NCBI RefSeq assembly: GCF_026151205.1
Contig: NC_087079.1
Span: 17,232,945 to 17,296,944 of the forward strand
DNA: 64,000 nucleotides
Origin: Bolinopsis microptera
Taxonomy: Eukaryota > Ctenophora > Tentaculata > Lobata > Bolinopsidae
Reading direction: 5' to 3'
Both the position numbers and the translations under genes were made by a program. Shown here in pieces: positions 7,480 to 64,000 of the stretch. Within the stretch, counting starts at the first letter, position 1; every line of letters begins with the position of its first letter. The notes beneath the pieces were generated by a model, which worked only from the letters and a program-made list of their open reading frames with translations, made no database searches and was not told where the DNA came from.

Positions 7480-10400
7480 TCATCTTTTCTCTAATTTCTT
7501 GAACTTTGATTCAAGAACTTTAGTGTAGGCATCTAGACGCAGGGTCGCTTGCTCGAGGGAGGCAACAGAAACATCTGCAGAAAGGAGCATGAAAAATATA
7601 ACTAGGATAGAGTTATTAATGCTGCAATATCTATTAATATATCAATAAGTATTAATAATTATTACCATTTGCTCGTCGCAAACATAATGTTAAATATATT
7701 ATCCGTGATCAGATCGATATTTTCACCTAGCTGATTGAGTTGCTCCAGGTAAGGCAAGAGTAATGAACACCCTAGTAACACCCTAGTAACACCCTAGTAA
7801 CACCTTAGTAACACCCTAGTAACACCCTAGTAACACCCTAGTAACACCTTAGTAACACCCTAGTAACACTGATTGCATTCTCACCTAGCTGATTGAGCTG
7901 CTCCAGGTAAGGCAAGAGTAATTAACAGCTTAGTAACACCCTAGTAACACCCTAGTAACACCTTAGTAACACCCTAGTAACACCCTAGTAACACCCTAGT
8001 AACACCTTAGTAACACCCTAGTAACACCCTAGTAACACCCTAGTAACACCTTAGTAACACCCTAGTAACACTGATTGCATTCTCACCTAGCTGATTGAGC
8101 TGCTCCAGGTAAGGCAAGAGTAATTAACAGCTTAGTAACACCCTAGTAACACCCTAGTAACACCTTAGTAACACCCTAGTAACACCTTAGTAACACCTTA
8201 GTAACACCCTAGTAACACCCTAGTAACACCCTAGTAACACTGATTGCATTCTCACCTAGCTGATTGAGTTGCTCCAGGTAAGGCAAGAGTAATTTATACT
8301 TGACATCAAGATCATGGAGACTGTCTTTAATCTGTGTTGTGGAGTGAGACAGGTTCGTATACTGATCAATAGCGATCGTGTTTAGTTCCTGAAAAAGTGA
8401 AAGTAAATGTTTTACAACACATTATTTATATTATAGGCCCAGTTTTACAATATATATATATACACACTCTGTTACAAAACATACATTGGGGGGGGGGGGG
8501 GGGGGGAGGGTAGGGTTGGGAAATACTGATGGTTGCGGACGGGAGGGGGGGGGGGGTGGGTCTGGGCCCAAATCTTTATTAATCAAATTGAGTAATTCGA
8601 TATATGATCGATATAAGTCGAGGCTTCCCCTTTTATTTGCGATCTCGGAAAACATGCCTCCCCTTTGTAATGTGAGCTCGAAAGCCTGCCTTCAGAGGTG
8701 GGTCCGGGACTCTAGGGCGTAAGACTCTAGGGCGTAAGACTCTAGGGCGGCGCCCTACAAAACAGGACTCTAGGGCGTGAAAAATCTTGGGCGTGAAAAA
8801 AACAGGACTCTAGGGCGTGAAATATTGTTTTTTTCTAATTTTCTGCGTCTATGAAGTCAGCTTCGTGGTTGTGTGGAATTGCAGGTGTCTCCGTGGACCG
8901 TGAGGCTCAAACCCTTGGTCCAGATTCACCCCTTACAGGATCCGGCTTTCTTCACACATCTCCAAGACTGTGACCCATCTTTTCTTAGTTTTCCATCTGG
9001 AGAGTACCGGAATCCTAGGTGCAGTGCGTTCTTACTCTTGGCCGTTCTTCCTCTGATTAAAGTAAACGAAAGATCGGACATAGTGTAGTAGGAAACGAAT
9101 GATAATGAATTAATGATGGGATAGATCACTAGATCATGTTTTTATTGTTATTGTTTTGATTATAAACATCTTTCTTTACTGTACAGGGTGTGTTGGTGAG
9201 CTTTTATAATTTGACAATAAAATGTTGGTGACTGACAGCTTCCCACGCTTCCCACCTCTAAGACACTAGCTATCAGTATTGTTTACATTTAAAGTTTATC
9301 ATTATGTATGGGACCGGGACTCTATTATATATGTATATAATATCAAATATGCATACTATAATAGTACAGTATTGTTTTGAAATAAGTTTAATCCGCTTTC
9401 GTTATGCTCAGTCAGTGTTACATTTCATTGGCTGTATCTTAGGTCGAGATAAATACTCCCTGTGAACCTGTGACAACGGACATCCTTATTAAAAATGAAA
9501 TTAGATTCATTTTGATCGAAAATATAAAAATTATATTTCACGCCCTAGAGTCCTGTTTTTTTCACGCTTTAGATATTTTCACGCCGTAGAGTCCTGTTTT
9601 GTAGGGCGCCGCCCTAGAGTCTTACGCCCTAGAGTCTTACGCCCTAGAGTCCGGACCCCTTCAGAGGTACGTATTGAGAATAACTCGGACCGAACATTTT
9701 CCCACAAACTTTCTCAGAATCAGAAACATTCTTGGTTTAAGGTCCTCCAAAGTAGATGAACGTTGGTAGTCCACAAAAACTAGAAACAGTCTGGATTGCC
9801 TGTCAATCAGGCAATCCAGACTGTTTGGAGGAGATAATGTCCTCTAGATAATTCTACAAAAGGAACTATAAAAATCCTAAAGTTTTCCAAAGCAACCTTT
9901 CTTTGTGACGGCCCCACAACAACAATATATTTCCTCAATGCACTTGTATCGGACACTAACAATCTAGAGATCCGATGGATAGCGGGGAAACTAAAAAGCA
10001 GATAAGCTGGCAAAGCTTGGCACAACCACTGAATCCAATTTGAATTTCGACGACGACAAAGTCACCAGACTGAATCAGGAAACCTGGTTACCTGATGGTC
10101 CCAGGCACACCAAAATGTCACTCGGCCACAAACATGGAACATGTAAACATCATGAAAAACCTTGACACTACATTCAGCTTCATGTCCTATATGTAATGTG
10201 TGGCGAAGAAGAGGAGACTGTCTTGCACTTTCTTGGACAGTACCCGGCTATTGCCCAAATAAGAGGGCAATATTTCCAGGACTGTTACCCCTCTGTCAAT
10301 GACATATTTGACAACCAACATTAGGAACCGACCGGATATCCGGCTGAATCCGGATTCGGCCGGATATCCGGCTTCAATATCCGGTTTCAGCTCCGGTTTC

Positions 10401-25879: not shown

Positions 25880-25925
25880 AGATGTGTCATGTTTCAGCGT
25901 ATGTGGCGGTAGATCCTCCCTCCCT

Positions 25926-27245: not shown

Positions 27246-27259
27246 TCTTCGAGTTCAAC

Positions 27260-27642
27260 AAAGTCAACAAAGGCTTTTTAGAATATGGGAACTTAACACA
27301 AGTTCATTCGTATCTCTCAAAACGGGTCAGACAGACTTATTTTACAATCGTAGCCACGGACGGCTATGGAGTTGAAAGTAGTGTTATGTGAGTCGTGTTT
27401 CTCAATTGTGATTGGCTGATGTTAAGATAGTGTTAAGACGGTGAAAGGTGAAGGTAGTTACTTAGTCTTAAGGTTTCTGAGAATGAATTCGTGAGGGAGG
27501 TATTACTAATAGGTGTTAACTTGAAGTGTTGAAACTTGTAGGCAATGCTTTGTGAAATTAGTATGAGTTAATTTGAAGCCGTCCGGGAATAAAACATGAA
27601 ATATTAGAATTAAAATTAAGAAATGAAATTATATGCTCTACA
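27260..27642 (-). repeat. 5' LTR (383 bp)
   Basis: Direct copy of 23445-23827. Its outer edge supplies the first codons of the open frame that continues into the RT gene at 27643. Confidence 0.9.
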
Positions 27643-39600: not shown

Positions 39601-42271
39601 ACTTGAAGCTAAAACCTCACACAAGCTACAAGCTAAAACCTCACACAAGCTAAAACCTCACTACACAGGCGAGATAGACAGGTAGATGTCACACCATCAA
39701 GTCGCTGTGACTGGAGAAAAGCGCCCCTCCCCAAGACTGCCACAACTACTTCCAAGCCAGTGCCCGCCCGCTCGCGCAGCCCTCCATCCAGGAAGCGCCC
39801 CCTCAGCATGGACCACTCCGCAAACACTGACAGAGACAGACACGGCTCTCATCCCAGGATTAGTGCTCCCACTCCTGTGGGATATCCTTCTTATGGAACT
39901 TACAACAACATGCCGTAAGTGGCAGGGGGATCCTAGAGTTTGTTGTTCTAGTGACCTGGTATTGTTGCTTAGTTAATACGTGGTTTATTCTGTCTGGCAT
40001 TATATAAAATAGTGCGTTATTAAAACTTGATAGCTTTGTGTCTTAGTACAGATGTTGAAACAGGGATAAGGAAACTTAATGCCTTGATAAGCTCTCAAGT
40101 TTTGATAGGATTGTGTTTATTGTTTGATTTCTAATTACTTGATGCATTTCAGATAATTTCTGTTAATGTGGGCTGGCGATGAATGAGTTGTGAACTGCTG
40201 AAATTTATGAGAGTAAAATAAACTTGTTGGGCGGTCCCTTAAATGAGTAATATGGGATTTGTTGTAAAGCGTAGAAGTTGAACCTGCAGTTATTCAAGTT
40301 TAACTTCAAGTTGAGCCCCAGTGACGAACTACATATTTGGAAATAATCTCTCGACTTTGAGACTCTATATATATATATATAATGATGCAATACAGTGGGG
40401 TGTATTTCAATAATAAAAAGGTTTTTTTAGACTTATGTAATTTTTTATGTAGGTATTAAATGTCATTTGAAGTTATTTAAGGTTACTTGAGGTGATTTGA
40501 GTTTATTTGAAGATATATCTTGTCGACCAAGCGCAGGTGTAAAAGTAACAGTTGGGCAGAAAGAACTTTGAATTCGTCACTGGGACTCTCCCTAACAGCT
40601 GGTGACTGTTAAGGTTAACTTCTAAGCTGTGGTTATACGATTGATTTGATTTCCTCTCCTCTGCAGTGTGTATGGAGATAGAGGGAATCTGAGGGAATAT
40701 CTTGTTAATATGATCGGACTACCCTTCTCTGCAAGCGAAGAAGACATCAAGCAGTTCTTCCATCCCATTAGAATGTCTCAAGTTGAGTTTTTAAAGAATA
40801 ATCGGGGGTTGCCACGCGGTATTGCTGTTGTTGGGTTTCATTCGGAGGAAGATCGTAGCAATGCAATGCTGAGGAATAAGAATACAATTGGTTAGCGACG
40901 GTTTTAAATAATTTCAAGATAATTTGTTGGTTTTTATTTCTGTTCCGTATTGTTTGACAATAGGTTATGTGCTACGTTGTTGTGCTCCATAATTCAAGTT
41001 TTATATCAGCTTGATTGGATCCTACTGGAAGATATGGCCACGTTTCTTTATTTGAAAGTTTTCTGGCTCGCGGCCAGGAACCATTGAAGAGATAACATCT
41101 TTATCTCGATGCCTTGAAAATACGAATGCCGGTTATCCCTTATAACTTTATAAGGATATTGGCAAAATGCCAACAATTGCGACAACAGTATAAACCACAA
41201 GAAATATGTATTGAATGAAAATAAAGGTTGGGAAAGACAAAAATGTCGCAGCTTCTTTCAGTTTCTGAAAATAGTGATAGAATAAAAATGATACAATTTT
41301 GAAAGGTTGGACTGTCAGTAATTTTGCTTTGGATGTATTTATTTAATATCAAGCTACTAGATACTTCTGATAGATCTGTTTGAACTCTAAATAGTGAGTA
41401 CACTGGGTTGTAAGACGGTTTTATGAGAGGAAACCATCATGGGCTCGTTGTTAGCATAAGATTTTCAGTACGTCATAAGCTTGAAATTTAATTTCAGTGC
41501 ATTTATGGTGGCCACAGCGGATTCCAAAAGGGCTTCAAGGTGTGTGTAGTGAAACAATTATCACATATTCTATATGTAACGTGTTATGATGATCGGTGAA
41601 AGAATGAGAAGTTTAATTATGATGAACCAATAATTAGTGCTTGATGAATCTCCAGTACTATTCCGTTCGAGGTCGATTGTCGAGCTAGCTAGCAAAGCTT
41701 GGACGGGTTTATCTTTACCTGAACTACTTAAAATAAAAGAGAAACATTTGACTACAACAAAAAGAACACAAATGTACATGCTCCATGTTTTAAACTGTGC
41801 GATCTCTTTCTCGGATTTATCTTAGAAACGTTGTAAGATCAGGTGTTATAAGATAAGGTGTTGTAAGATCACGTAGAAATAGGCTTCAGCTCTCAGTTTA
41901 ACTGGTTGTTGTTTCCCAGTTCTAAGTTCTGATTGCTTCCCAGGAAGCCGTTACGTTAATCTGCATGTGAGAAACGAACCTCGTGAATACGACTTTGACT
42001 TCACTAAAGGCGGTGGTTAGTAATCTCGTTTTCATCAAGGCTCTAGCTGATTTTCTATCTACTAGAGCTGATATGTACCAACATTAAACTATCGTATCAT
42101 TTATATGTTTCAACCTCCAGTTCGATTAAAATAATTTGTATCAAGCTCATTCTCATCATTAATAAATGATTTACAGGTAAAGTACACGAAGACAAGCGGG
42201 ACGACTTCAGTAGGTCTCGAGAGGTGACCTACAGAGATAATCGTAATAGAGACCCTTACAGTAGATACTGA
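30642..42271 (+). CDS. Five-RRM protein of the hnRNP F/H-GRSF1-ESRP type, 14 exons
   Basis: Exons: 30642-30692, 30962-31097, 35521-35618, 36058-36118, 36528-36639, 36782-36966, 37088-37197, 37417-37526, 37711-37815, 37945-38139, 39669-39914, 40667-40890, 41944-42015, 42177-42271. All junctions are GT-AG and phases add up to 599 aa. The RRMs fall at about 20-105, 117-200, 218-290, 322-392 and 475-553. Their RNP1-like strands read SSEAYIEF, SGGCFVEF, RGESFLDF, NGEAFIEF and RGIAVVGF. They lack the aromatic residues of canonical RRMs, as quasi-RRMs that bind G-rich RNA do. An SR/proline-rich linker (RSRSPPSRKRP) precedes RRM5. The N-terminus is only 19 residues. Vertebrate hnRNP F/H and GRSF1 have three such domains, so five is unusual; RBM12-type proteins are the alternative. 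Introns carry minisatellites and transposon debris. Confidence 0.85.
31118..31380 (+). repeat. G-run plus GGACAAAA array
   Basis: Thirteen G are followed by TATCACTGTCCATTTT and then by about 20 degenerate copies of GGACAAAA. It starts 20 bp after the exon 2 donor of the RRM gene. The same arrangement, inverted, is at 33085-33220. Confidence 0.8.
31530..32390 (+). mobile_element. Two tandem copies of a CCTGGGGACC-type element
   Basis: Both copies (31533-31988 and 32043-32390) start TTTACCTGGGGACCCCAGGC, run through AATTGAACCCTCTAAAAC, and end AATGACAGGCTGAGCGCCGC. The first carries an extra 100-bp segment (31852-31945) whose inverted copy is at 21322-21416. No transposase is seen. Located in intron 2 of the RRM gene. 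Confidence 0.75.
33085..33220 (-). repeat. Inverted copy of the G-run/GGACAAAA element
   Basis: Read on the minus strand: a G-run, then TGCCACTGTCCATTTTGTCC, a loop, and GGACAAAA-type units. The two halves are complementary and could fold into a hairpin. Confidence 0.75.
33558..33870 (-). pseudogene. Coding remnant, coiled-coil-like
   Basis: About 100 codons open on the minus strand with one internal TAA. The sequence includes KGLKALKASVESFTQLKRD and SVQHEKLMSELEALMAKQ, which look like a coiled coil. The source gene is not recognised. It lies in intron 2 of the RRM gene, so it is probably a transposon-borne or processed remnant. Confidence 0.4.
34020..34377 (-). mobile_element. tRNA-Gly-derived SINE
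   Basis: On the minus strand the head reads GGCCGGGTGGTGTAGTGGTA (A box), then an anticodon loop CTCCCAA (Gly-CCC type) and a B box GGGTTCAAACCCC. Acceptor-stem pairing is broken, so it is not a tRNA gene. About 280 bp of unrelated body follows. Confidence 0.7.
34881..35485 (+). pseudogene. 5'-truncated LINE 3' end with (TTGTATCC)n tail
   Basis: A 146-codon frame contains SLTRFRISCHNLYIERGRYE, then CTFC and an EDEIHVLTHC cluster, the cysteine/histidine tail of a LINE ORF2. The 3' UTR ends in four copies of TTGTATCC, the tail that LINEs of this kind extend. It ends about 35 bp upstream of RRM-gene exon 3. Confidence 0.8.
35791..36049 (+). repeat. 60-bp minisatellite adjoining a 3' splice site
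   Basis: Just over four copies of a 60-bp unit starting TCCATGTTACTTTACGCTAG and ending GCACTGACATTA. The last copy runs to within 10 bp of the acceptor of RRM-gene exon 4 (AG at 36056-36057). Confidence 0.95.
38214..39655 (+). repeat. 24/27-bp minisatellite filling RRM-gene intron 10
   Basis: About 57 copies of a 24-bp (AAGCTACAAGCTAAAACCTC plus ACAC) or 27-bp (with ACTTGAAGC) unit. All units are multiples of three, so both strands stay open for about 1.4 kb; neither frame looks like a real protein. The array starts after a good acceptor-like tract (38200-38213) and ends 13 bp before the acceptor used for exon 11. Confidence 0.95.
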
Positions 42272-44142: not shown

Positions 44143-47100
44143 ATGGACAACAGTAACATATGTTCTGTAGAGAAACTAACAGAGACAATAAAGCTTGTGG
44201 AAAACTTGAGGTCCACAGTTTACGTAGTGTTTGATGAGCTGGTGGGTGGTAAAACTATCAACGATGGGATTAAAGATCACAGAACTATCAACGACAAAGA
44301 AAAAGGTACTTTTCCTCCCAGATATCTGCTGGGTTTGCCAACTTTGTGGATATGGGTACTTACCTTCACTATAATACTCTCAATCTCCATAATTTCTTAT
44401 ACAAAACCACCAGATAAGGGATCATAACCTGACTTTAGGTAAAAAAATGGTGGCGAACTTGCATCTGAACCTACAAAACGGGGTGAACAAAGCTCTTAAC
44501 ATGTTGGAGACCAGCATGGCAAGTCTTGGACGATATCCTCTGAGTACCCTGCCTCACAACCCCGGCTTTCATCTGCTGTCCTTGGAAACTAACGATATAA
44601 GGGGACAAGAGGTATATTGTATAATGTATATATATAGGCTGTATATTTTTAAGTGGGGTGGTTTTAATTTTAGGAGGCTAAAAATGAAATAATAATCTTT
44701 ATTGAAAGTTACCTCAATTTCCAAGACGCCTTTTTTCTTGTCTCAATTACAGACGTTGAGTTTTAGCGGTAACATTATGAAATGAATATTAATATTATAA
44801 TTTACCTTAAAGAGTTCACTAAATCACCTCAGCTATATGAGACACTACATAACGACTATCTTCACGTGTATAAAATCTGCGACAATAGCGGACTGATGTT
44901 CAAATCTCTGACAAGGAATATGAAGATTCCTAACACACAGGACATCGAGCCAGTACCTCAGAGCAACATCTACCACTCCATCCAGGCTCCCAGGTTAGTT
45001 CTACATCTACCACTCCATCCAGGCTCCAAGGTTAGTTCTACATCTACCAGTCCATCCAGGCTCCCAGGTTAGTTCTACATCTACCACTCCATCCAGGCTC
45101 CCAGGTTAGTTCTACATCTACCACTCCATCCAGGCTCCCAGGTTAGTTCTACATCTACCAGTCCATTCAGGCTCCCAGGTTTGTTCTACATCTACCAGTC
45201 CATCCAGGCTCCCAGGTTAGTTCTACATCTACCACTCCATCCAGGCTCCCAGGTTAGTTCTACATCTGACACTCCATCCAGGCTCCCAGGTTAGTTCTAC
45301 ATCTACCACTCCATCCAGGCTCCCAGGTTAGTTCTACATCTACCAGTCCATCCAAGCTCCCAGGTTAGTTCTACATCTACCACTCCATCCAGGCTCCCAG
45401 GTTAGTTCTACATCTACCACTCCATCCAGGCTCCCAGGTTAGTTCTACATCTACCAGTCCATCCAGGCTCCCAGGTTAGTTCTACATCTACCAGTCCATC
45501 CAGGCTCCCAGGTTAGTTCTACATCTACCACTCCATCCAGGCTCCCAGGTTTGTTCTACACCTGACACTTCATTCAGGCTCCCAGCCCCCAGGTTTGTTC
45601 TACATCTACCAGTACATCCAGGCTCCCAGGTTTGTTCTACACCTGACACTCCATCCAGGCTCCCAGCCCCCAGGTTTGTTCTACATCTACCAGTACATCC
45701 AGGCTCCCAGGTTAGTTCTACATCTACCACTCCATCCAGGCTCCCAGGTTTGTTCTACATCTACCAGTACATCCAGGCTCCCAGGTTTGTTCTACATCTA
45801 CCACTCCATCCAGGCTCCCAGGTTTGTTCTACATCTACCACTCCATTCAGGCTCCCAGGTTAGTTCTACATCTACCAGTCCATCCAGGCTCCCAGGTTAG
45901 TTCTACATCTACCAGTCCATCCAGGCTCCCAGGTTAGTTCTACATCTACCAGTCCATCCAGGCTCCCAGGTTAGTTCTACATCTACCAGTCCATCCAGGC
46001 TCCCAGGTTTGTTCTACATCTACCAGTCCATCCAGGCTCCCATGTTAGTTCTACATCTACCAGTCCATCCAGGCTCCCAGGTTAGTTCTACATCTACCAG
46101 TCCATCCAGGCTCCCAGGCCAGGTTAGTTCTACATCTACCACTCCATCCAGGCTCCCAGGTTAGTTCTACATCTACCAGTCCATCCAGGCTCCCAGGTTA
46201 GTTCTACATCTACCAGTCCATCCAGGCTCCCAGGTTAGTTCTACATCTACCACTCCATCCAGGCTCCCAGGTTAGTTCTACATCTACCAGTCCATCCAGG
46301 CTCCCAGGTTTGTTCTACATCTACCAGTCCATCCAGGCTCCCAGGTTAGTTCTACATCTACCACTCCATCCAGGCTCCCAGGTTAGTTCTACATCTACCA
46401 CTCCATCCAGGCTCCCAGGTTTGTTCTACACCTGACACTCCATCCACTACTCCGCAAGCAATTCACTACCACTTATATGTGAGTAGTGATAATTATTCAA
46501 TTGTCTCTGTGAACGAACAATTTACAGCCTACTATAAGAGCCCAGATTTCCACTCAAACACTGGCCAGTGCATAATGCTATAGGACCTCAAAATAAGATC
46601 GAACTCTACGAATTCGATCTATTCAAAGACAATAGTATTATAAACATTTCTATCTTATCCCTATACATTTGTAGATAACTAGAACTGTGTAACTTTAAAT
46701 TATTTCAGAATTATAACTATTGTGAATTCAATAAAATAATTATCACTCTTGTATCCTTGTATCCTGTGAGTACCAAAATTTTATTTTCCTCTCTAAAAGT
46801 ACAATTTAAATGAATCGAGGAAACAATGGGAGGACGGTATGCATATACAAATTTATCACTACCTCAGGTCCCACCTGGAAAGTTTCGTAGCGAACATGAA
46901 CCAGCGATTCAGCAGCTCAGGTGGGAGTCAGGTCCTGAAGCTGAACCTGATGAAGACCAGCAGTGGTAACATGCTGAAAGCGATCGTGGGCACTGTGTTG
47001 AAAGCTAATATCATGATGCAAGGACTGCTAGTGGACCGAGTTGTCGTGCATTCCTTCAATGAGGAGACTACCAACGATAACATCTGGCCTCCATCTAAGT

Positions 47101-50033: not shown

Positions 50034-53000
50034 ATGAGGATAGACAAAGCAAAGTGCAAGAAGATTCTCACTGAAGTGGTCTGTACTATTCTCCCCTTCT
50101 GTCTTCAAATCAAAATAGTTTATAATAGTTTATAATAGTTTATAATTTTATACATCATAATGACGTATTATTATTCGGCCGCATTTGTACAGTGCCACGA
50201 ATGCGTGCTAGAGTAAAACCCAGATTTACCGCGGTTGTTTCCTCTTCCCAAACTCAGCGGTAAATACAAGCACTTTTCAGTGTTCACTACAAACACAAAG
50301 TGTTTATAACACCCATACCATCTAGCCGGCTAGCTGTCGAGGACTGATAACAAAGTTAAAGACGTGCCCTGAAAGCGAACTTGTGAATACTCTCAAGGAG
50401 ATTACTGTTTGGGAATATGGCAAGGTAAGTGTTGTCTCAATCATTATAGCAAATATCATTATAGCAAATATCATTATAGCAAATATCTTACCTCCTCACG
50501 GAGTAGTTTGCTAGTGTAACATCATTATCACACTCATCTTACCTCAAGTTGTCATTATTGCAAAAGTTACATTTAGATATATTAAAATCGCTACAATTTT
50601 AATGTTCACTAAGTTCCGTATCATGATCCCCCCCCCCTCCGTATCATACAGATAACAAACATTAACCCTCAGTGTGAGCTGTATCACTGGATCGATGTGC
50701 TGGACAGATTTGATGCTATTTTGGAGCGTGTCGCTAAGCCTGAAGCTGCGCCGCCTAACGAGATGATGATTTACCTGTGTAGGAAACTGGAGGAGAAGCA
50801 GGTTCGTGGGCTGAGTGAGCATTTACTATTATACTATATAGTCCTGCTAATAAAGTTCATGATAGTTATAAAACCTGTTTTTTTCAGTCAAAACACTTAG
50901 TTTACTACGTCCTTTACTTCACGGCGCTGCTGATGGAGCATGCATACGCCAGACATCTCTACAGCTCTATTGAGGTACAACTTATTCCTGACCACTTATT
51001 CCTGACGACTTTTTTCCTTTGTTAAAGTAAACAGAAATTATTAAACCTCATATTCTATTATTAAAGTTCATTTTGTGTTACCCTCTCTTTCTTTCAGCAT
51101 CTGACGAATCTGTTGGCAGCTAGTGATATGGACATTGTACTAGCAGTTCTCAATCTACTCTATGTATTTAGGTAACTCTTCATCCATTGTCAGAAGTGAA
51201 CCAGAATACGAAATTAAATGACCACTCCATGACCGCATCTTTCAGTACTAGCCTAATTTTGCACTTTTCATGGAGCTGTCCGCGCGAAAGTCCTAATTTA
51301 TATGCACTTTTTCGCGCGCATAACGCGCCATCAAATCTACCTTTGGCTGGAATTTACGTATAACTGGCGATTATTGGGACGGTTGAGACCACTGAAACAA
51401 GCACGTGAAACGATCTTAATATAATATTATGAAAATTCCGGGTTAGGCCACAAAAATTTCAGGTGGAACTGATTTATTTACGAAGATAACAGAACAATTG
51501 TTTCAGTAAGCGATCAAACTTCATCTCTAGACTGACTCCAGAAAGAAGATCGTCGTTAAAACTTCGCCTGAATCACTTGGCTGAGGTATTTATTTCGTTA
51601 TTTATTCGTTTATTTCCTTTTGCAGCCAATTGTGTGCTGAAATACATAGCTTTGAGATAATTACTTCTCTGATTAGAAGAATCATCGGCTTTTTATTTTA
51701 ATGGGATAAAAGAGTTCAGGATTTCCACAGCATTAAAATCTAGCCTCTTTTTGGCAAGCTATCCAGAATAACCAATAAATAATGCAGCAATATATTCCGT
51801 ACTAGCCTCTTTTTGGCAAGCTATCCAGAATAACCAATAAATAATGCAGCAATATATTCCGTACTAGCCTCTTTTTGGCAAGCTATCCAGAATACCCGAT
51901 AAATAATGCAGCAATATATTCCGTACTAGCCTCTTTTTGGCAAGCTATCCAGAATAACCAATAAATAATGCAGCAATATATTCCGTACTAGCCTCTTTTT
52001 GGCAAGCTATCCAGAATTACCAATAAATAATGCAGCAATATATTCCGTACTAGCCTCTTTTTGGCAAGCTATCCAGAATAACCAATAAATAATGCAGCAA
52101 TATATTCCGTACTAGCCTCTTTTTGGCAAGCTATCCAGAATAACCAATAAATAATGCAGCTATATATTCCGTACTAGCCTCTTTTTGGCAAGCTATCCAG
52201 AATAACCAATAAATAATGCAGCAATATATTCCGTACTAGCCTCTTTTTGGCAAGCTATCCAGAATAACCAATAAATAATGCAGCAATATATTCCGTACTA
52301 GCCTCTTTTTGGCAAGCTATCCAGAATAACCAATAAATAATGCAGCAATATATTCCGTACTAGCCTCTTTTTGGCAAGCTATCCAGAATAACCAATAAAT
52401 AATGCAGCTATATATTCCGTACTAGCCTCTTTTTGGCAAGCTATCCAGAATAACCAATAAATAATGCAGCAATATATTCCGTACTAGCCTCTTTTTGGCA
52501 AGCTATCCAGAATTACCAATAAATAATGCAGCAATATATTCCGTACTAGCCTCTTTTTGGCAAGCTATCCAGAATTACCAATAAATAATGCAGCAATATA
52601 TTCCGTACTAGCCTCTTTCTGGCAAGCGATCCAGAATAACCAATAAATAATGCAGCAATATATTCCGTACTAGCCTCTTTTTGGCAAGCTATCCAGAATT
52701 ACCAATAAATAATGCAGCAATATATTCCGTACTAGCCTCTTTTTGGCAAGCTATCCAGAATAACCAATAAATAATGCAGCAATATATTCCGTACTAGCCT
52801 CTTTTTGGCAAGCTATCCAGAATAACCAATAAATAACGCAACAATATATTCCGTACTAGCCTCTTTTTGGCAAGCTATCCAGAATAACCAATAAATAATG
52901 CAGCAATATATTCCGTACTAGCCTCTTTTTGGCAAGCTATCCAGAATAACCAATAAATAATGCAGCAATATATTCCGTACTAGCCTCTTTTTGGCAAGCT

Positions 53001-56000
53001 ATCCAGAATAACCAATAAATAATGCAGCAATATATTCCGTACTAGCCTCTTTTTGGCAAGCTATCCAGAATAACCAATAAATAATGCAGCAATATATTCC
53101 GTACTAGCCTCTTTTTGGCAAGCTATCCAGAATTACCAATAAATAATGCAGCTATATATTCCGTACTAGCCTCTTTTTGGCAAGCTATCCAGAATAACCA
53201 ATAAATAATGCAGCAATATATTCCGTACTAGCCTCTTTCTGGCAAGCTATCCAGAATTACCAATAAATAATGCAGCTATATATTCCGTACTAGCCTCTTT
53301 TTGGCAAGCTATCCAGAATAACCAATAAATAATGCAGCAATATATTCCGTACTAGCCTCTTTTTGGCAAGCTATCCAGAATACCCGATAAATAATGCAGC
53401 AATATATTCCGTACTAGCCTCTTTTTGGCAAGCTATCCAGAATAACCAATAAATAATGCAGCTATATATTCCGTACTAGCCTCTTTTTGGCAAGCTATCC
53501 AGAATTACCAATAAATAATGCAGCAATATATTCCGTACTAGCCTCTTTTTGGCAAGCTATCCAGAATTACCAATAAATAATGCAGCAATATATTCCGTAC
53601 TAGCCTCTTTTTGGCAAGCTATCCAGAATTACCAATAAATAATGCAGCAATATATTCCGTACTAGCCTCTTTTTGGCAAGCTATCCAGAATAACCAATAA
53701 ATAATGCAGCAATATATTCCGTACTAGCCTCTTTCTGGCAAGCTATCCAGAATACCCGATAAATAATGCAGCAATATATTCCGTACTAGCCTCTTTTTGG
53801 CAAGCTATCCAGAATACCCGATAAATAATGCAGCAATATATTCCGTACTAGCCTCTTTTTGGCAAGCTATCCAGAATAACCAATAAATAATGCAGCTATA
53901 TATTCCGTACTAGCCTCTTTTTGGCAAGCTATCCAGAATTACCAATAAATAATGCAGCAATATATTCCGTACTAGCCTCTTTTTGGCAAGCTATCCAGAA
54001 TTACCAATAAATAATGCAGCAATATATTCCGTACTAGCCTCTTTTTGGCAAGCTATCCAGAATTACCAATAAATAATGCAGCAATATATTCCGTACTAGC
54101 CTCTTTTTGGCAAGCTATCCAGAATAACCAATAAATAATGCAGCAATATATTCCGTACTAGCCTCTTTTTGGCAAGCTATCCAGAATAACCAATAAATAA
54201 TGCAGCAATATATTCCGTACTAGCCTCTTTTTGGCAAGCTATCCAGAATTACCAATAAATAATGCAGCTATATATTCCGTACTAGCCTCTTTTTGGCAAG
54301 CTATCCAGAATAACCAATAAATAATGCAGCAATATATTCCGTACTAGCCTCTTTTTGGCAAGCTATCCAGAATAACCAATAAATAATGCAGCAATATATT
54401 CCGTACTAGCCTCTTTTTGGCAAGCTATCCAGAATAACCAATAAATAATGCAGCAATATATTCCGTACTAGCCTCTTTTTGGCAAGCTATCCAGAATACC
54501 CGATAAATAATGCAGCAATATATTCCGTACTAGCCTCTTTTTGGCAAGCTATCCAGAATAACCAATAAATAATGCAGCTATATATTCCGTACTAGCCTCT
54601 TTTTGGCAAGCTATCCAGAATTACCAATAAATAATGCAGCAATATATTCCGTACTAGCCTCTTTTTGGCAAGCTATCCAGAATTACCAATAAATAATGCA
54701 GCAATATATTCCGTACTAGCCTCTTTTTGGCAAGCTATCCAGAATAACCAATAAATAATGCAGCAATATATTCCGTACTAGCCTCTTTTTGGCAAGCTAT
54801 CCAGAATAACCAATAAATAATGCAGCAATATATTCCGTACTAGCCTCTTTTTGGCAAGCTATCCAGAATACCCGATAAATAATGCAGCAATATATTCCGT
54901 ACTAGCCTCTTTTTGGCAAGCTATCCAGAATAACCAATAAATAATGCAGCTATATATTCCGTACTAGCCTCTTTTTGGCAAGCTATCCAGAATACCCGAT
55001 AAATAATGCAGCAATATATTCCGTACTAGCCTCTTTTTGGCAAGCTATCCAGAATACCCGATAAATAATGCAGCAATATATTCCGTACTAGCCTCTTTTT
55101 GGCAAGCTATCCAGAATAACCAATAAATAATGCAGCTATATATTCCGTACTAGCCTCTTTTTGGCAAGCTATCCAGAATTACCAATAAATAATGCAGCAA
55201 TATATTCCGTACTAGCCTCTTTTTGGCAAGCTATCCAGAATTACCAATAAATAATGCAGCAATATATTCCGTACTAGCCTCTTTTTGGCAAGCTATCCAG
55301 AATAACCAATAAATAATGCAGCAATATACTAGCCTCTTAGAAGCTACTCTGATTATTTGTCAATCTAACGTGTTATTAAGAGGAGGCTTCATGTATTTTA
55401 ATATAACACCTGCCCTCTAGTCATGGGGAGGAAAAGATAACGGGTTTGGTCTAGCTGCTTGTTGTGAAGATAAGCCATTGTCTGAGTTTCCACCTACGGC
55501 AACCACACTGCACTACGAGTTTTACATCTTGGGAAGCAACGGGGCCAGCTCACACAAGGTCATACACAAGGAGCATCTGGACACATACTCAGACAGGTAT
55601 GTAGACCCCATATGTCGAAATATGGATCAATGATCCTCAGACTTGTGCTACAATTTTTAATTTATTGTTAATGTTTTTATCGTGATATATGCTTAAGAAC
55701 TGAGGTTGTTCACATAGTTGTAAGTGTTAGCAACATATCATTACTATGTTACTTTTTCAGTTCCGCGAGAATAATGGAGGACCTGGTGACGAGTTTCCAG
55801 GTTCCTACTGGTAAACAAATGGGACTGCTCACTCACATCAGACTGGCACAAGCTTTTTCTAACTACACTCGCAGACTGCAGTGTGTACAGGTCGGTTTTT
55901 TAATCATAAGATAAAAATGTAATGTCATTTTCTTTGCTAAATCCATTCTTCCATCTACATTATACTCACTATCAATGTTACATCTACATTATACTCACTA

Positions 56001-59000
56001 TCAATATTACATCTACATTATACTCACTATCAATGTTACATCTACATTATACTCACTATCAATATTACATCTACATTATACTCACTATCAATGTTACATC
56101 TACATTATACTCACTATCAATATTACATCTACATTATACTCACTATCAATGTTACATCTACATCATACTCACTATCAATATTACATCTACATCATACTCA
56201 CTATCAATATTACATCTACATTATACTCACTATCAATATTACATCTACATTATACTCACTATCAATATTACATCTACATTATACTCACTATCAATATTAC
56301 ATCTACATTATACTCACTATCAATATTACATCTACATTATACTCACTATCAATATTACATCTACATTATACTCACTATCAATATTACATCTACATTATAC
56401 TCACTATCAATATTACATCTACATTATACTCACTATCAATATTACATCTACATTATACTCACTATCAATATTACATCTACATTATACTCACTATCAATAT
56501 TACATCTACATTATACTTACTATCAATATTACATCTACATTATACTCACTATCAATATTACATCTACATTATACTCACTATCAATATTACATCTACATTA
56601 TACTCACTATCAATATTACATCTACATTATACTCACTATCAATATTACATCTACATTATACTCACTAAGAGTTATATTGATATTAGGGAATGATGGGTGA
56701 TAAGTAGGGCGGGGATATAGGTAGGTTTAAGGGCAAGCTAAGTTGTTATCAGTGTAAACTAGTAGTATAGACTACTTAAACTGTCATCTTCTTTGAAAGA
56801 CAGGATATTTGTAATATCGAGATTTGTTCATTTCAGGCTCGACTACAAGCGATATCTATACTGGTATACAGTAACGCGGGAAATGACATTCTGCAGAACC
56901 TGCTATATGATGGTCTGATAGAGGAGCTAGTGGACGTGCTGGGGGTTTCTGATCACAGACTAACTGTAAGACTTTTATTTGATGAACTTTTTATTTGATA
57001 AGCTTACCTTAGGACTTTCAATATCATTTTGAAAATTAATTAATTAAGAACTTTGATGATCGTCGATTTTAATTATTTTGGTATTTAGTAGTATGAGACC
57101 CCACCCCCACATTACCAAAACTCATTATGTCAGGACATCAAAGCAGCGGCACTGCGCACTCTAACTGCAATAATACACCTGGAGAGGACGCCACGTATAA
57201 ACGCTATAATAGACGCCACGGGAATGTCCTCCTATCACGGCTTCTTCCCTTCCCTCTTTAGATCCTGTGTCTTAGCTATGATTGGTAGAGTGACTCTTTC
57301 TTCTCAGCTATGATTAATTCATTACCCTTATATTTGATATAATTCTATTAATTTATTTGACTATAATAATATCCATCGCTGACCCTATTACATAATAGTA
57401 AATTAACATTTCTACAGGAGAAAGCAAAGAAACACCCCTGCCCCAGACCCTTTCCACAGCCCTCTTCTCCTTCCTCTATCACCTGGCCAGCTACGAGTCG
57501 GGGGGCGAGGCACTTGTCTCGTGTGGCATTATGGAAACCCTCCTCCGTATTGTACAGTGGAAGAGTCTAGATAATTCCCAGGTCCGTTATTGCTGGAAAA
57601 GTTTAAATCTTTTCGTCATTTAATGGCTGACATTGTTTTCTTATGTTCCTGTTGGCTACGCTTAGATGAGACACTATTGACGGCGTATTCACAAAGCATT
57701 TCAAATAGAGATGATCATATTCAGCATAATATCAATGACCTAATTAATTGAATGTGATTTAGTTGCCACGTATTTTACTTTTACACACTTAAATCTCAGT
57801 TAACATTTGTAACGAGGGCGGTGCGGCTGGTAGATCTGATAACTAACATGGACATCACAACTTTCACCAACTTCAGTGGACTCTCCTGCCTTATAGCCAG
57901 ACTGGACGTGAGTTTTAAAAGCTGAACTTTAAAGAGGCTAAGAGTTTTGGGGTGTTTAATAGGGGGGGGGGGGGTTATAAATTGTAACGAAGGAGTAATC
58001 TAGCTAATTAATTGCAGCACGAGGTGAACAAGTGTAGAGATGATCTGGGTGAAGAACGTGTCCTCCACGAGTCTCCCACACTTGAAGAAATTGAAGGTGG
58101 AGAGGACAACTCTCCTTCCAGGGTTAGGGGCTATAGTTTATACAACTTTACATATAATAGCTAAAGTTGGTTTCAGCTTTTATTAGGTTATGATGGACAC
58201 ATGTTTTGACACATAACGATTCTTAACCTCCCAAAAGTATGGAATAACTTGTATCATCATGTTTTTAATATCTTCTTTGCAGGACATACTGTCAGTTTTT
58301 CAATGAAATAAAATCTTCATTTCCCCTCCAGGATGGTGAATCCAGTTCAGACCCTGTTTCTCTTGACGTTATAGAAGTGGCCATGACAGCGGAACCTGCC
58401 GTGCCTGCTCAAGACGTTGATATGACGGACAGTGAACGAGCCTCTTCTTCTAAAAGTGGCAAGGGTGAGTAATGAAGAGGACTTCTTAGTTTGTCCTAAC
58501 TTGAGATCAACTTCAATATGTTTTTTCCTTGCTTTAAATGAACTTGTTATTTAACTATTCAATATGTGAACTTTGCATAATATGTATCGAATGGCAGGTT
58601 TTAATGATTCTGTAACCTCTGTAATTTATTAGCTGTAACGTTATAATATGCTCCCTAGTATTAACTATTACAAAACCTTCAGGTGCTGCTAAGTCATGCA
58701 GATCTATGTGTATTCCTCAGCGAGCAGCCCTACTTAAGAGCGTCCTCAACTTCCTCAAAAAATCCATCCCCGACCCCCTTTTCTCAGACTACATTAGAAA
58801 CGGTTAGTTTTTACTTAGTAGTGCCCGTAGTGGCCGTTCTTTCTTAATCACGATTCATTTATTTAACTGAAATTTGGAAATTTAACAATAGTAAGTTTGT
58901 ATTATAAGTTGCTGAGCTGTATTTTAAATTTAACAATCGTAAGATTGTATTATAAGTTGCTGAGCTGTATTTTCAGTGATGGATGGCTCCTTACCGAGCT

Positions 59001-62000
59001 CTCTAAAGCACATCATCAGTAAGGCTGAGTACTACGGACCCTCTCTTTTCCTTTTAGGTCAGTTTTACTTCATTTCTCGTAATTTCTCTAAGTATTATTC
59101 ATTTATACTTTATTCAGGTTTTTTTGTTACTCGTATGCTGCTTTCCAAAGAACCGGTAGAAATTTCCTGTTATGCGAAATATATTAAATAAATCAAGCCT
59201 TGATCTTGTCAGTTTTTTTATGTCAAACAGGTTCTTTTTTATTTTGTTTAAGCTGTGAAAAGATATTAACTATTGAATTAACATTTGGTTCTTGTTGCTA
59301 TAGCTACGGAGGTAGTAACACTTTACGTGTTCCACGAACCTTCCCTCCTGTCAAGTTTACAAGACAGGAAATTAACTGACGTTATACTTGAAGCTCTTGT
59401 TGTCAAAGAGGTGGGTTTTCTTTACTTTTCCCAGCTTTTAGCTCCGGATTAACAAAACCCAAAAGTTGGCCCGATTTATTTTATAGGCAGATTTTACCGT
59501 CAATTTTTTCCGCCGTTCTTGCCCTATTTTGAAGCAATTATCAAAACAATGATAAAGTGAGCTGAACAAGCAAAATACCGAACTTGAAGAGTGTCAGTAA
59601 AATAAATGTCCCCTTTCTTGCAGGTACCCCCAACTAGAGAAGTGATAGCTTCCTTACCCAACATCCTCAGTGCACTGTGCCTCAACCAGCGAGGTCTGGA
59701 GGCCTTTATTCAGTGCAAACCTTTCGACAGGCTGTTCCACGTCCTGCTGTCTCCGCAATACCTTCCCGCTATGAGACGCCGGAGCAGTGATAGCTTAGGT
59801 AAGTTCCACGTCCTGCTGTCTCCACAATACCTTCCCGCTATGAGACGCCGGAGCAGTGATAGCTTAGGTAAGTTCCACGTCCTGCTGTCTCCACAATACC
59901 TTCCCGCTATGAGACGCCGGAGCAGTGATAGCTTAGGTAAGTTCCACGTCCTGCTGTCTCCACAATACCTTCCCGCTATGAGACGCCGGAGCAGTGATAG
60001 CTTAGGTAAGTTCCACGTCCTGCTGTCTCCACAATACCTTCCCGCTATGAGACGCCGGAGCAGTGATAGCTTAGGTAAGTTCCACGTCCTGCTGTCTCCG
60101 CAATACCTTCCCGCTATGAGACGCCGGAGCAGTGATAGCTTAGGTAAGTTCCACGTCCTGCTGTCTCCGCAATACCTTCCCGCTATGAGACGCCGGAGCA
60201 GTGATAGCTTAGGTAAGTTCCACGTCCTGCTGTCTCCGCAATACCTTCCCGCTATGAGACGCCGGAGCAGTGATAGCTTAGGTAAGTTCCACGTCCTGCT
60301 GTCTCCGCAATACCTTCCCGCTATGAGACGCCGGAGCAGTGATAGCTTAGGTAAGTTCCACGTCCTGCTGTCTCCGCAATACCTTCCCGCTATGAGACGC
60401 CGGAGCAGTGATAGCTTAGGTAAGTTCCACGTCCTGCTGTCTCCGCAATACCTTCCCGCTATGAGACGCCGGAGCAGTGATAGCTTAGGTAAGTTCCACG
60501 TCCTGCTGTCTCCACAATACCTTCCCGCTATGAGACGCCGGAGCAGTGATAGCTTAGGTAAGTTCCACGTCCTGCTGTCTCCGCAATACCTTCCCGCTAT
60601 GAGACGCCGGAGCAGTGATAGCTTAGGTAAGTTCCACGTCCTGCTGTCTCCACAATACCTTCCCGCTATGAGACGCCGGAGCAGTGATAGCTTAGGTAAG
60701 TTCCACGTCCTGCTGTCTCCACAATACTTCCCGCTATGAGACGCCGGAGCAGTGATAGCTTAGGTAAGTTCCACGTCCTGCTGTCTCCACAATACCTTCC
60801 CGCTATGAGACGCCGGAGCAGTGATAGCTTAGGTAAGTTCCACGTCCTGCTGTCTCCGCAATACCTTCCCGCTATGAGACGCCGGAGCAGTGATAGCTTA
60901 GGTAAGTTCCACGTCCTGCTGTCTCCACAATACCTTCCCGCTATGAGACGCCGGAGCAGTGATAGCTTAGGTAAGTTCCACGTCCTGCTGTCTCCACAAT
61001 ACCTTCCCGCTATGAGACGCCGGAGCAGTGATAGCTTAGGTAAGTTCCACGTCCTGCTGTCTCCACAATACCTTCCCGCTATGAGACGCCGGAGCAGTGA
61101 TAGCTTAGGTAAGTTCCACGTCCTGCTGTCTCCGCAATACCTTCCCGCTATGAGACGCCGGAGCAGTGATAGCTTAGGTAAGTTACTATACTATATTCCA
61201 CGTCCTGCTGTCTCCGCAATACCTTCCCGCTATGAGACGCCGGAGCAGTGATAGCTTAGGTAAGATACTTTACTATATTCCACGTCCTGCTGTCTCCGCA
61301 ATACCTTCCCGCTATGAGACGCCGGAGCAGTGATAGCTTAGGTAAGATACTATACTATATTCCACGTCCTGCTGTCTCCGCAATACCTTCCCGCTATGAG
61401 ACGCCGGAGCAGTGATAGCTTAGGTAAGTTCCACGTCCTGCTGTCTCCACAATACCTTCCCGCTATGAGACGCCGGAGCAGTGATAGCTTAGGTAAGATA
61501 CTTTACTATATTCCACGTTCTGCTGTCTCCGCAATACCTTCCCGCTATGAGACGCCGGAGCAGTGATAGCTTAGGTAAGATACTTTACTATATTCCACGT
61601 CCTGCTGTCTCCGCAATACCTTCCCGCTATGAGACGCCGGAGCAGTGATAGCTTAGGTAAGTTCCACGTCCTGCTGTCTCCACAATACCTTCCCGCTATG
61701 AGACGCCGGAGCAGTGATAGCTTAGGTAAGTTCCACGTCCTGCTGTCTCCACAATACCTTCCCGCTATGAGACGCCGGAGCAGTGATAGCTTAGGTAAGT
61801 TCCACGTCCTGCTGTCTCCGCAATACCTTCCCGCTATGAGACGCCGGAGCAGTGATAGCTTAGGTAAGTTCCACGTCCTGCTGTCTCCACAATACCTTCC
61901 CGCTATGAGACGCCGGAGCAGTGATAGCTTAGGTAAGTTCCACGTCCTGCTGTCTCCGCAATACCTTCCCGCTATGAGACGCCGGAGCAGTGATAGCTTA

Positions 62001-63758
62001 GGTAAGTTCCACGTCCTGCTGTCTCCGCAATACCTTCCCGCTATGAGACGCCGGAGCAGTGATAGCTTAGGTAAGTTCCACGTCCTGCTGTCTCCGCAAT
62101 ACCTTCCCGCTATGAGACGCCGGAGCAGTGATAGCTTAGGTAAGTTCCACGTCCTGCTGTCTCCACAATACCTTCCCGCTATGAGACGCCGGAGCAGTGA
62201 TAGCTTAGGTAAGTTCCACGTCCTGCTGTCTCCACAATACTTTCCCGCTATGAGACGCCGGAGCAGTGATAGCTTAGGTAAGTTCCACGTCCTGCTGTCT
62301 CCACAATACCTTCCCGCTATGAGACGCCGGAGCAGTGATAGCTTAGGTAAGTTCCACGTCCTGCTGTCTCCGCAATACCTTCCCGCTATGAGACGCCGGA
62401 GCAGTGATAGCTTAGGTAAGTTCCACGTCCTGCTGTCTCCACAATACCTTCCCGCTATGAGACGCCGGAGCAGTGATAGCTTAGGTAAGTTCCACGTCCT
62501 GCTGTCTCCGCAATACCTTCCCGCTATGAGACGCCGGAGCAGTGATAGCTTAGGTAAGTTCCACGTCCTGCTGTCTCCGCAATACCTTCCCGCTATGAGA
62601 CGCCGGAGCAGTGATAGCTTAGGTAAGTTCCACGTCCTGCTGTCTCCGCAATACCTTCCCGCTATGAGACGCCGGAGCAGTGATAGCTTAGGTAAGTTCC
62701 ACGTCCTGCTGTCTCCGCAATACCTTCCCGCTATGAGACGCCGGAGCAGTGATAGCTTAGGTAAGTACCACGTCCTGCTGTCTCCACAATACCTTCCCGC
62801 TATGAGACGCCGGAGCAGTGATAGCTTAGGTAAGTTCCACGTCCTGCTGTCTCCGCAATACCTTCCCGCTATGAGACGCCGGAGCAGTGATAGCTTAGGT
62901 AAGTTCCACGTCCTGCTGTCTCCGCAATACCTTCCCGCTATGAGACGCCGGAGCAGTGATAGCTTAGGTAAGTTCCACGTCCTGCTGTCTCCACAATACC
63001 TTCCCGCTATGAGACGCCGGAGCAGTGATAGCTTAGGTAAGTTCCACGTCCTGCTGTCTCCGCAATACCTTCCCGCTATGAGACGCCGGAGCAGTGATAG
63101 CTTAGGTAAGTTCCACGTCCTGCTGTCTCCACAATACCTTCCCGCTATGAGACGCCGGAGCAGTGATAGCTTAGGTAAGTTCCACGTCCTGCTGTCTCCA
63201 CAATACCTTCCCGCTATGAGACGCCGGAGCAGTGATAGCTTAGGTAAGTTCCACGTCCTTCTGTCTCCACAATACCTTCGCGCTATGAGACGCCGGAGCA
63301 GTGATAGCTTAGGTTAGATACTTCTTATTCCTTATTTCCTGTCACATGGTCCAGACATTTTGCGCTCATTGAGCATTGTGCATTTTTTGGTGTAATAGTG
63401 GGGGGGGGGCAGGGACAAAAGGATTTCGCGATCATTTTGGTCAAAAATCGCGGTACCGCGAAATTTAACAGGCTATACATTAAACTATACATAAAATTTG
63501 TCACGGAGAATGGGAAATTTCGCGATTTCGTACATGCCGCGAAATCCTTTTGTCTCTGGGGGGGGGGGGGGGGGGGGGGCAATAGTCCATTTGGAACTCC
63601 ATTTTTCTTATCATTTATTAAAAAGACTAAAGTTTCGACCTCTGGTTTTTTTAAAACACTTTTCAGGAGACACGGCTACGAACCTAGGAACAGCTATGGA
63701 TGAGTTGATGAGGCATCAACCTACACTGAGACACGATGCAATGACTGCAATCATCAAG
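50034..63758 (+). CDS. HUWE1: HUWE1 E3 ubiquitin ligase, N-terminal 19 exons (continues past window)
   Basis: Exons: 50034-50075, 50326-50424, 50652-50801, 50888-50974, 51098-51171, 51507-51585, 55421-55596, 55761-55890, 56837-56965, 57134-57284, 57418-57581, 57800-57907, 58018-58122, 58332-58464, 58683-58802, 58977-59057, 59304-59410, 59624-59798, 63667-63758. They give 734 codons, in frame throughout. HUWE1 is a giant HECT ligase acting on many nuclear and cytoplasmic substrates. Conserved blocks: [102 protein letters not shown]. These correspond to the N-terminal armadillo-like DUF908 and the start of DUF913. The HECT domain lies beyond the window. The exon 1 donor (GAA/GTGGTC) is non-consensus and uncertain. 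Three introns contain large tandem arrays; the one after exon 18 repeats the exon's own end. Confidence 0.95.
51739..55334 (+). repeat. 62-bp satellite-like array in HUWE1 intron 6
   Basis: 58 copies of a 62-bp unit starting ACTAGCCTCTTTTTGGCAAG. Spacing is almost perfectly regular; the last unit lacks ATTCCGT. Variants are limited to a few positions (AATAACCAAT, AATTACCAAT or AATACCCGAT; GCAGCAAT or GCAGCTAT; TTTTTGG or TTTCTGG). The array is unrelated to HUWE1 exons as far as I can see. Confidence 0.97.
55953..56666 (+). repeat. 29-bp minisatellite in HUWE1 intron 8
   Basis: About 24.6 copies of ATCTACATTATACTCACTAT plus CAATATTAC, with a few GTT/ATT and CATCAT variants. It begins 62 bp after the exon 8 donor. 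All three forward frames are open through it because no frame contains a stop, but this is low-complexity sequence, not a gene. Confidence 0.97.
59735..63317 (+). repeat. HUWE1: 69-bp array of HUWE1 exon 18 tail plus splice donor, 51 copies
   Basis: The unit is the last 64 nt of exon 18 (starting TTCCACGTCCTGCTGTCTCC, ending GATAGCTTAG) plus the first 5 nt of the intron (GTAAG), i.e. 69 bp or 23 codons. Copy 1 is the genuine exon end (59735-59798). Fifty further copies run to 63312. Five junctions carry 13 extra bases (GTAAGATACTTTACTATA-type, at about 61180, 61258, 61343, 61493 and 61573). Copy 15 lacks one base (near 60727). The last copy has GTTAGA in place of GTAAGT. Units are otherwise nearly identical, with a G/A variant at CTCC(G/A)CAATA. 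Confidence 0.98.
63410..63558. mobile_element. 149-bp hAT-like MITE inserted in a G tract, HUWE1 intron 18
   Basis: Ends CAGGGACAAAAGGATTTCGC and CCTTTTGTCTCTG. Both flanks are runs of G, consistent with an 8-bp GGGGGGGG target duplication. Same length and internal AATCGCGGTA/CGCGAAAT palindromes as the copy at 42643-42791. Confidence 0.8.
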
Positions 63759-64000
63759 GTAACATACTCCCTGGAACAATATTATTGAACCATTATCAAA
63801 CCTTATTGAAATAAACTGTCTTTGGGCACTTTCAGAATAATCAGCAGTTGACAATGATCTCACTGAGTAAGATCAGTGCTACTAAACAGAACGTTATCCC
63901 CCCCCCCCCTACTAAACAGTATTAGAAGTATCGGTGGATATAATGCAGATATAGGGTATCCTCAGAAGTATCAGAAGTATATAGGTGTACTTATGCTAAA

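Follow-up and report, generated by a model that had tools for sequence, protein, structure and literature searches.

The HUWE1 gene of the ctenophore Bolinopsis microptera carries, at many of its exon-intron boundaries, tandem arrays in which a piece of exon is repeated together with its splice site. Our analysis started from a 64,000-nt stretch of contig NC_087079.1 (positions 17,232,945 to 17,296,944, forward strand; hereafter the window), in which 51 copies of one HUWE1 exon end and its donor stand in a row (the index array), and followed the gene downstream over 83.7 kb in total. Within this span nine introns start with arrays in which the donor is present in 2 to about 67 near-identical copies, and repeated acceptors stand at the end of four introns or more. 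The cell must choose one true splice site among dozens of near-identical copies. We consider it likely that tandem duplication blind to the boundary made these units, and that the exon-proximal donor is the one that works, through exon definition, with the other copies travelling as passengers of the intron.

The index array spans 59735-63320 on the forward strand and, as the earlier note on this DNA had described, consists of 51 head-to-tail units, each made of the last 64 nt of a HUWE1 coding exon (59624..59798, forward strand) followed by GTAAG. Copy 1 is the exon end itself (59735-59798) with donor 1 at 59799..59803. Exact 69-mers of two types, A (23 units) and B (19 units), which are one synonymous site apart (CCG or CCA), account for 42 of the 51 units; the remaining nine comprise two 69-mers that each differ by a single substitution, a 68-mer, five 82-mers and a last copy that has diverged. 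Tandem Repeats Finder (TRF) reports 52.0 copies of period 69, and a chance origin of the array is excluded. The five 82-bp units lie within 61114-61592 (61114-61359 and 61429-61592, forward strand) and carry 13 extra nucleotides each, ATACTWTACTATA or TTACTATACTATA. As these are similar to the sequence past the last copy (GATACTT), such units probably keep a little of the original intron start. A search of the assembly (264.65 Mb) with the exon and the first copies as query, by a method that passes over very common words, gave 46 matches, all within the array or the exon itself.

Every unit holds AG/GT at a fixed place, the slash marking the exon end. The consensus donor that the earlier note had seen in every copy is present in 50 of the 51 units as AG/GTAAG, the last unit reading AG/GTTAG. 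The ladder donor is strong: donor 1 outscores 94% of 66 HUWE1 donors in a simple position matrix made for this analysis. Each unit thus repeats exon plus intron sequence of one boundary. Past the diverged last donor, intron sequence unlike the unit runs on (63313..63666, forward strand) to a separate acceptor at 63667, where the next exon begins (63667..63758, forward strand, by spliced alignment); with this layout the array is not an intron gained by duplication inside an exon. The reading frame is open through units 1-14, in agreement with the earlier note, and the 68-bp unit 15 breaks it. We do not use the observation that disruptive changes occur only past unit 14, which is circular, since 14 was defined by the first frameshift.

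The identity of the gene is well supported. The index exon region matches Pfam DUF913 (E=5e-21) and Protein Data Bank (PDB) chains named HUWE1 (E=2.2e-23), which bears out the earlier assignment. Spliced alignment to human HUWE1, with a hand-entered query, places collinear exons at 50326-63761 in the window, continues them through the 70 kb past it and reaches a HECT-domain exon at the end of L022. From the N-terminal region through DUF913 to the HECT exon, the aligned part of the exons contains no stop. Positions past the window are given in joined coordinates (window 1-64000, then L004-L007 and L020-L022). The 83.7 kb are a lower bound of the gene, its last some 60 residues lying beyond the sequence covered, and the exon list may have gaps in a 16.7-kb stretch (112596-129330). 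The index exon, numbered 18 in the earlier note, is the 16th of 86 listed exons (17th if a dropped 31-nt exon is counted), in a list that may lack one or more exons at its start. When donor 1, after 59798, is joined to the acceptor at 63667, the product is colinear with SSDPLG-DTASNLG of the human query, which makes this the canonical HUWE1 reading. Three DUF913 matches were found genome-wide, all of them in HUWE1, and no second DUF913 gene, in profile searches that can miss matches. A search for DUF908 gave no match, although N-terminal HUWE1 exons are present; such negatives mean little.

The index array had been taken as unique, a view that the remainder of the gene does not bear out. First signs of further arrays came from TRF on 40 kb past the window and from reading the sequence. 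With exons placed by alignment and each donor array named by its last exon base, the nine are 59798 (the index array; 69 bp, 51 copies), 68431 (60 bp, about 67 copies), 74245 (irregular spacing of 24, 128 and 195, 8 copies), 78747 (2 copies at a real spacing of 122 bp, for which TRF gives period 129), 94375 (66 bp, 54 copies), 99554 (48 bp, 5 copies), 100697 (43 bp, 21 copies), 101900 (48 bp, 9 copies) and 110636 (32 bp, about 15 copies). Mirror arrays, in which an acceptor is repeated with the exon start, are clear at 83524, 84888, 102518 and 112442; the one at 84888 was seen by TRF overlap only, since its exon part measures 11 nt. Two more are doubtful. The array at 105899 rests on a doubtful exon, and that at 87992 (L006 3046-4005), a 33-bp unit repeated 29 times at a HUWE1 exon start and open in frame (ATEPINNNTAG), could either encode a repeat within the protein or consist of 29 copies of the acceptor.

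The automatic exon set alone gives seven donor arrays, the index array included. A screen of boundary 21-mers, covering 86 donors and 86 acceptors, found repeats for 11 of the donors and 5 of the acceptors. Donors 65450 and 110806 proved to be wrong automatic exon ends, the latter replaced by 110636, and donor 131275 was set aside, its single close match lying at most 35 nt upstream of its own 21-mer. Among the acceptors, 110733 came from a wrongly placed exon, and 112392 was corrected to 112442. Random 21-mers recurred within 6 kb in 210 of 400 samples from introns versus 35 of 400 from exons, which shows that the introns are rich in repeats.

Two further observations concern repeated sequence in the same gene. 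The last 48 nt of one HUWE1 exon (L020 3135-3250; joined 107135-107250), whose donor 107250 was among the repeated ones of the screen, recur 1.4 kb downstream (L020 4663-4710; joined 108663-108710) with 97.9% identity and a GT after them, as a non-adjacent copy of exon end and donor. In the window, a 62-bp unit is repeated 58 times with its copies 97% alike between two HUWE1 exons (51740-55328), and overlaps no modelled exon.

What the later donors would encode can be read directly by following each HUWE1 donor array beyond donor 1. Three of the nine are open and in frame, namely 59798 and the two arrays with 48-bp units, 99554 and 101900. Five run into a stop 2-22 nt past donor 1 (68431, 74245, 78747, 94375 and 110636); at 110636 the choice of frame was a matter of judgement, but with a unit of 32 bp a frameshift would follow in any event. 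At 100697 the 43-bp unit would give a frameshift from a later donor. Use of a later donor would thus lead to a stop or a frameshift in six of nine arrays, yet copy numbers in these six range from 2 to about 67, which speaks against the earlier proposal that the array serves as an isoform generator. Arrays with ruinous later donors grow as large as the index array, which is most simply explained if such donors see little use, and the suggestion in the earlier note that the first donor may dominate gains support. Similarly, some acceptor arrays have units of 56 and 28 bp, lengths that would break the frame, and this points to use of the exon-proximal acceptor copy.

The frame of the units gives no clear sign of selection, and the open frame of the index unit looks like chance. 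Unit lengths divisible by three occur in 10 of 15 splice-spanning arrays and in 13 of 35 others, a difference that leans towards selection. We did not accept frame selection, because the spacing at 74245 is irregular, that at 78747 is 122 and not 129, 68431 and 94375 contain in-frame stops, the length of 60 at 83524 was set by hand (TRF gives 180) and the exon at 105899 is doubtful.

From these data we infer the following course of events. A tandem duplication across the 3' end of the exon and the start of the intron would have founded the index array, and minisatellite expansion with homogenisation would then have placed 50 extra copies of exon end and donor in the intron. If the spliceosome joins the upstream acceptor to the nearest donor across the exon, as exon definition predicts, donor 1 would be used, copies 2-51 would leave with the intron and the HUWE1 protein would be unchanged. 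An equal process, blind to the boundary, may have acted at other donors and acceptors of the genome, the arrays being tolerated because the exon-proximal site would win at either end. A shortest-exon rule would explain both intron ends, whereas choice of the shortest intron would lead to the wrong copy at either end. The gene offers a natural test of the two modes: under exon definition the copy next to the exon should be used at each end of the intron, under intron definition the opposite one. The test falls in a ctenophore, a member of an early-branching group for which a position as sister of all other animals has been argued. Provided that HUWE1 is functional in this species, a widely conserved gene tolerates dozens of good decoy sites.

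The placement of the arrays was compared with the counts expected if founding units fall uniformly along the collapsed gene. For HUWE1 arrays with a period of at least 20, 56 TRF rows were merged by hand to 50 loci, of which 9 span a donor, 6 span an acceptor (the doubtful 87992 and 105899 included), 1 is internal to an exon and 34 lie in introns only; uniform placement predicts 3.2, 3.2 and 7.5 for the first three classes. The donor-spanning excess has p of about 0.005, or 0.014 without the index array, the acceptor-spanning count shows no significant excess (p about 0.10), and arrays inside exons fall short of expectation (p about 0.005). Because several boundaries were adjusted or introduced with the arrays already in view (101900, 102518, 110636 and 112442 were set in this way, and 99554 was moved within its array), we read the result only as splice sites not being depleted in arrays, with donors perhaps enriched. 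Targeting of donors alone was dropped as the main claim, as acceptor arrays are also present, their number in HUWE1 does not differ from that of donor arrays (6 vs 9, p=0.61) and three arrays of dynein loci add to them. Microhomology between the exon and intron breakpoints is found in two of seven arrays, 68431 (5 bp) and 101900 (4 bp). These junctions rest on eight comparisons, six of them without microhomology, in at least one case (94375) through a shifted reference position.

Some of these results weigh against duplication blind to the boundary with use of the exon-proximal site. The donor excess hints at more than blind duplication, and the index unit is open and in frame, hence readable, unlike six of the nine arrays; those at 99554 and 101900 are likewise open. 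One way to account for this is that boundaries, donors above all, are preferred birthplaces of satellites in this lineage, for example through duplication coupled to transcription or splicing, and that the arrays persist under a strict shortest-exon rule while the open in-frame minority leaks length-variable proteins. We regard this as rather unlikely. Still less do we expect that donors 1-14 compete and lengthen the DUF913 region by (n-1) x 23 residues, which would yield a length-variable HUWE1 family. That 69 equals 3 x 23, that the frame is free of stops through unit 14, that the donors are identical and that excerpts of the UBC study document a ladder of repeat-unit isoforms in human cells (PMC10809524) all fit such a ladder. 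However, the three in nine arrays that are open in frame stand against six that are not, with a rough chance expectation, estimated and not computed, of about 2/9; moreover, each added unit would insert a partly hydrophobic 23-mer beside a conserved region, and the exon would grow from 175 nt by 69 nt a unit. Low-level ladder isoforms, with a small share of transcripts on donors 2-14, may nevertheless occur at the index array.

A different use of the copies would be recursive, with the AG/GT of each unit serving as 3' site for the preceding donor and the intron being removed stepwise, which would leave the mRNA unchanged if donor 1 acts first. AG/GTAAG in 50 of 51 units would allow this, and AGGT dual-specific sites are described, in the excerpted text, as enriched in introns of tandem-repeat genes (PMC10809524). 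The in-array acceptor TTAG/G scores only 0.28 in a simple matrix made here, at about the 15th percentile of 66 HUWE1 acceptors and low yet inside the range of real ones, against 2.17 for the true acceptor, and we think recursive use very improbable. Least probable of all is a false expansion in the assembly. By eye, the unit types are irregularly interspersed with single-copy variants and no long block recurs in their order, as one would expect to see after a simple duplication in the assembly, and arrays of the same style but of other sequences are found elsewhere. Duplication blind to the boundary, with the exon-proximal copy in use, is thus the reading we favour.

Intron gain by tandem genomic duplication was reportedly described by Hellsten in 2011, as cited in a review. 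Tandem repeats at exon-intron boundaries are already known in outline, as is the AGGT array of UBC. Excerpts of a 2009 study of human segmental duplications describe minisatellite units at exon-intron boundaries that are able to change splicing, on average 30-bp units in four copies, half of them inside coding exons and the boundary cases forming novel introns (PMC2812944). In contrast to what is described there, we find up to about 67 copies and, within a single gene, many affected boundaries of both donor and acceptor type, in introns that look older than the arrays. The UBC array shares with the HUWE1 ladder a regular AG/GT spacing, an in-frame unit and a possible isoform ladder; its units, as far as the excerpts go, are whole coding modules inside coding sequence with isoforms seen in RNA (PMC10809524), whereas the HUWE1 unit joins an exon tail to an intron start and reads weakly as an acceptor, its isoforms being putative. 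The duplicated segment also carries AGGT in intron gain by tandem duplication as part of a review presents it (PMC3443670), but there a new intron arises inside an exon, while here the copies come from a donor or acceptor already in place and do no more than lengthen its intron. A 2018 study that covers Mnemiopsis leidyi ties, in its excerpted part, exon skipping to exon definition (PMC6142364). In the open-licence literature, no paper on arrays of this sort in HUWE1 or in ctenophores came up by title or abstract, with part of the matches viewed for ctenophore tandem repeats. What appears to be new is how large the arrays are, how many of them one gene contains, and that they occur at both ends of introns.

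Boundary arrays also occur outside HUWE1. In the window, a second donor-type array (44966..46446, forward strand; 37-bp unit, 39.5 copies) repeats the end of an open reading frame, ...CAGGCTCCCAG, with the donor GTTAGTTCT, and this frame is presumed to be an exon of a putative gene on C8; it matched no Pfam family at E<=1, its best PDB match having E=0.9. A third (7719..8294, reverse strand) lies in BLOC1S2 and repeats the exon end ...CTCAATCAGCTAG with the donor GTGAGAATG in about four copies, counted by eye and interleaved with an 11-bp satellite; the peptide of two exons joined by hand matches Pfam BLOC1_2 (E=1.3e-15). Six comparison loci were inspected as well, and two of the four dynein loci among them contain boundary arrays (by eye), in a sample that is not random, as the dynein loci were chosen from a list showing long introns. 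The locus on C12, with flanking frames read by eye, has one donor-type array of three copies and acceptor-type arrays of 19 and 4. That on C1 (L026 5880-6171) repeats the exon start EQRIKTYVQRLNQ three times with a short satellite between copies, the first copy being degenerate and lacking the acceptor that the later two carry. Exons of both loci match DHC_N1. In the PRP8 and clathrin loci (10 kb each) no array of period at least 20 with at least two copies was found. Random loci (L008-L019) were scanned for arrays without annotation and enter no count.

Elsewhere in the window, frames of retroelements lie between the genes (15537-16844, 24575-27254 and 27627-29456) and encode reverse transcriptase, gag/zinc-knuckle and aspartyl protease, the last frame scoring below the curated cut-off. 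A 24-bp array of 57 copies at 38211-39685 stays free of stops for about 1.4 kb in three frames, two of them forward and one reverse.

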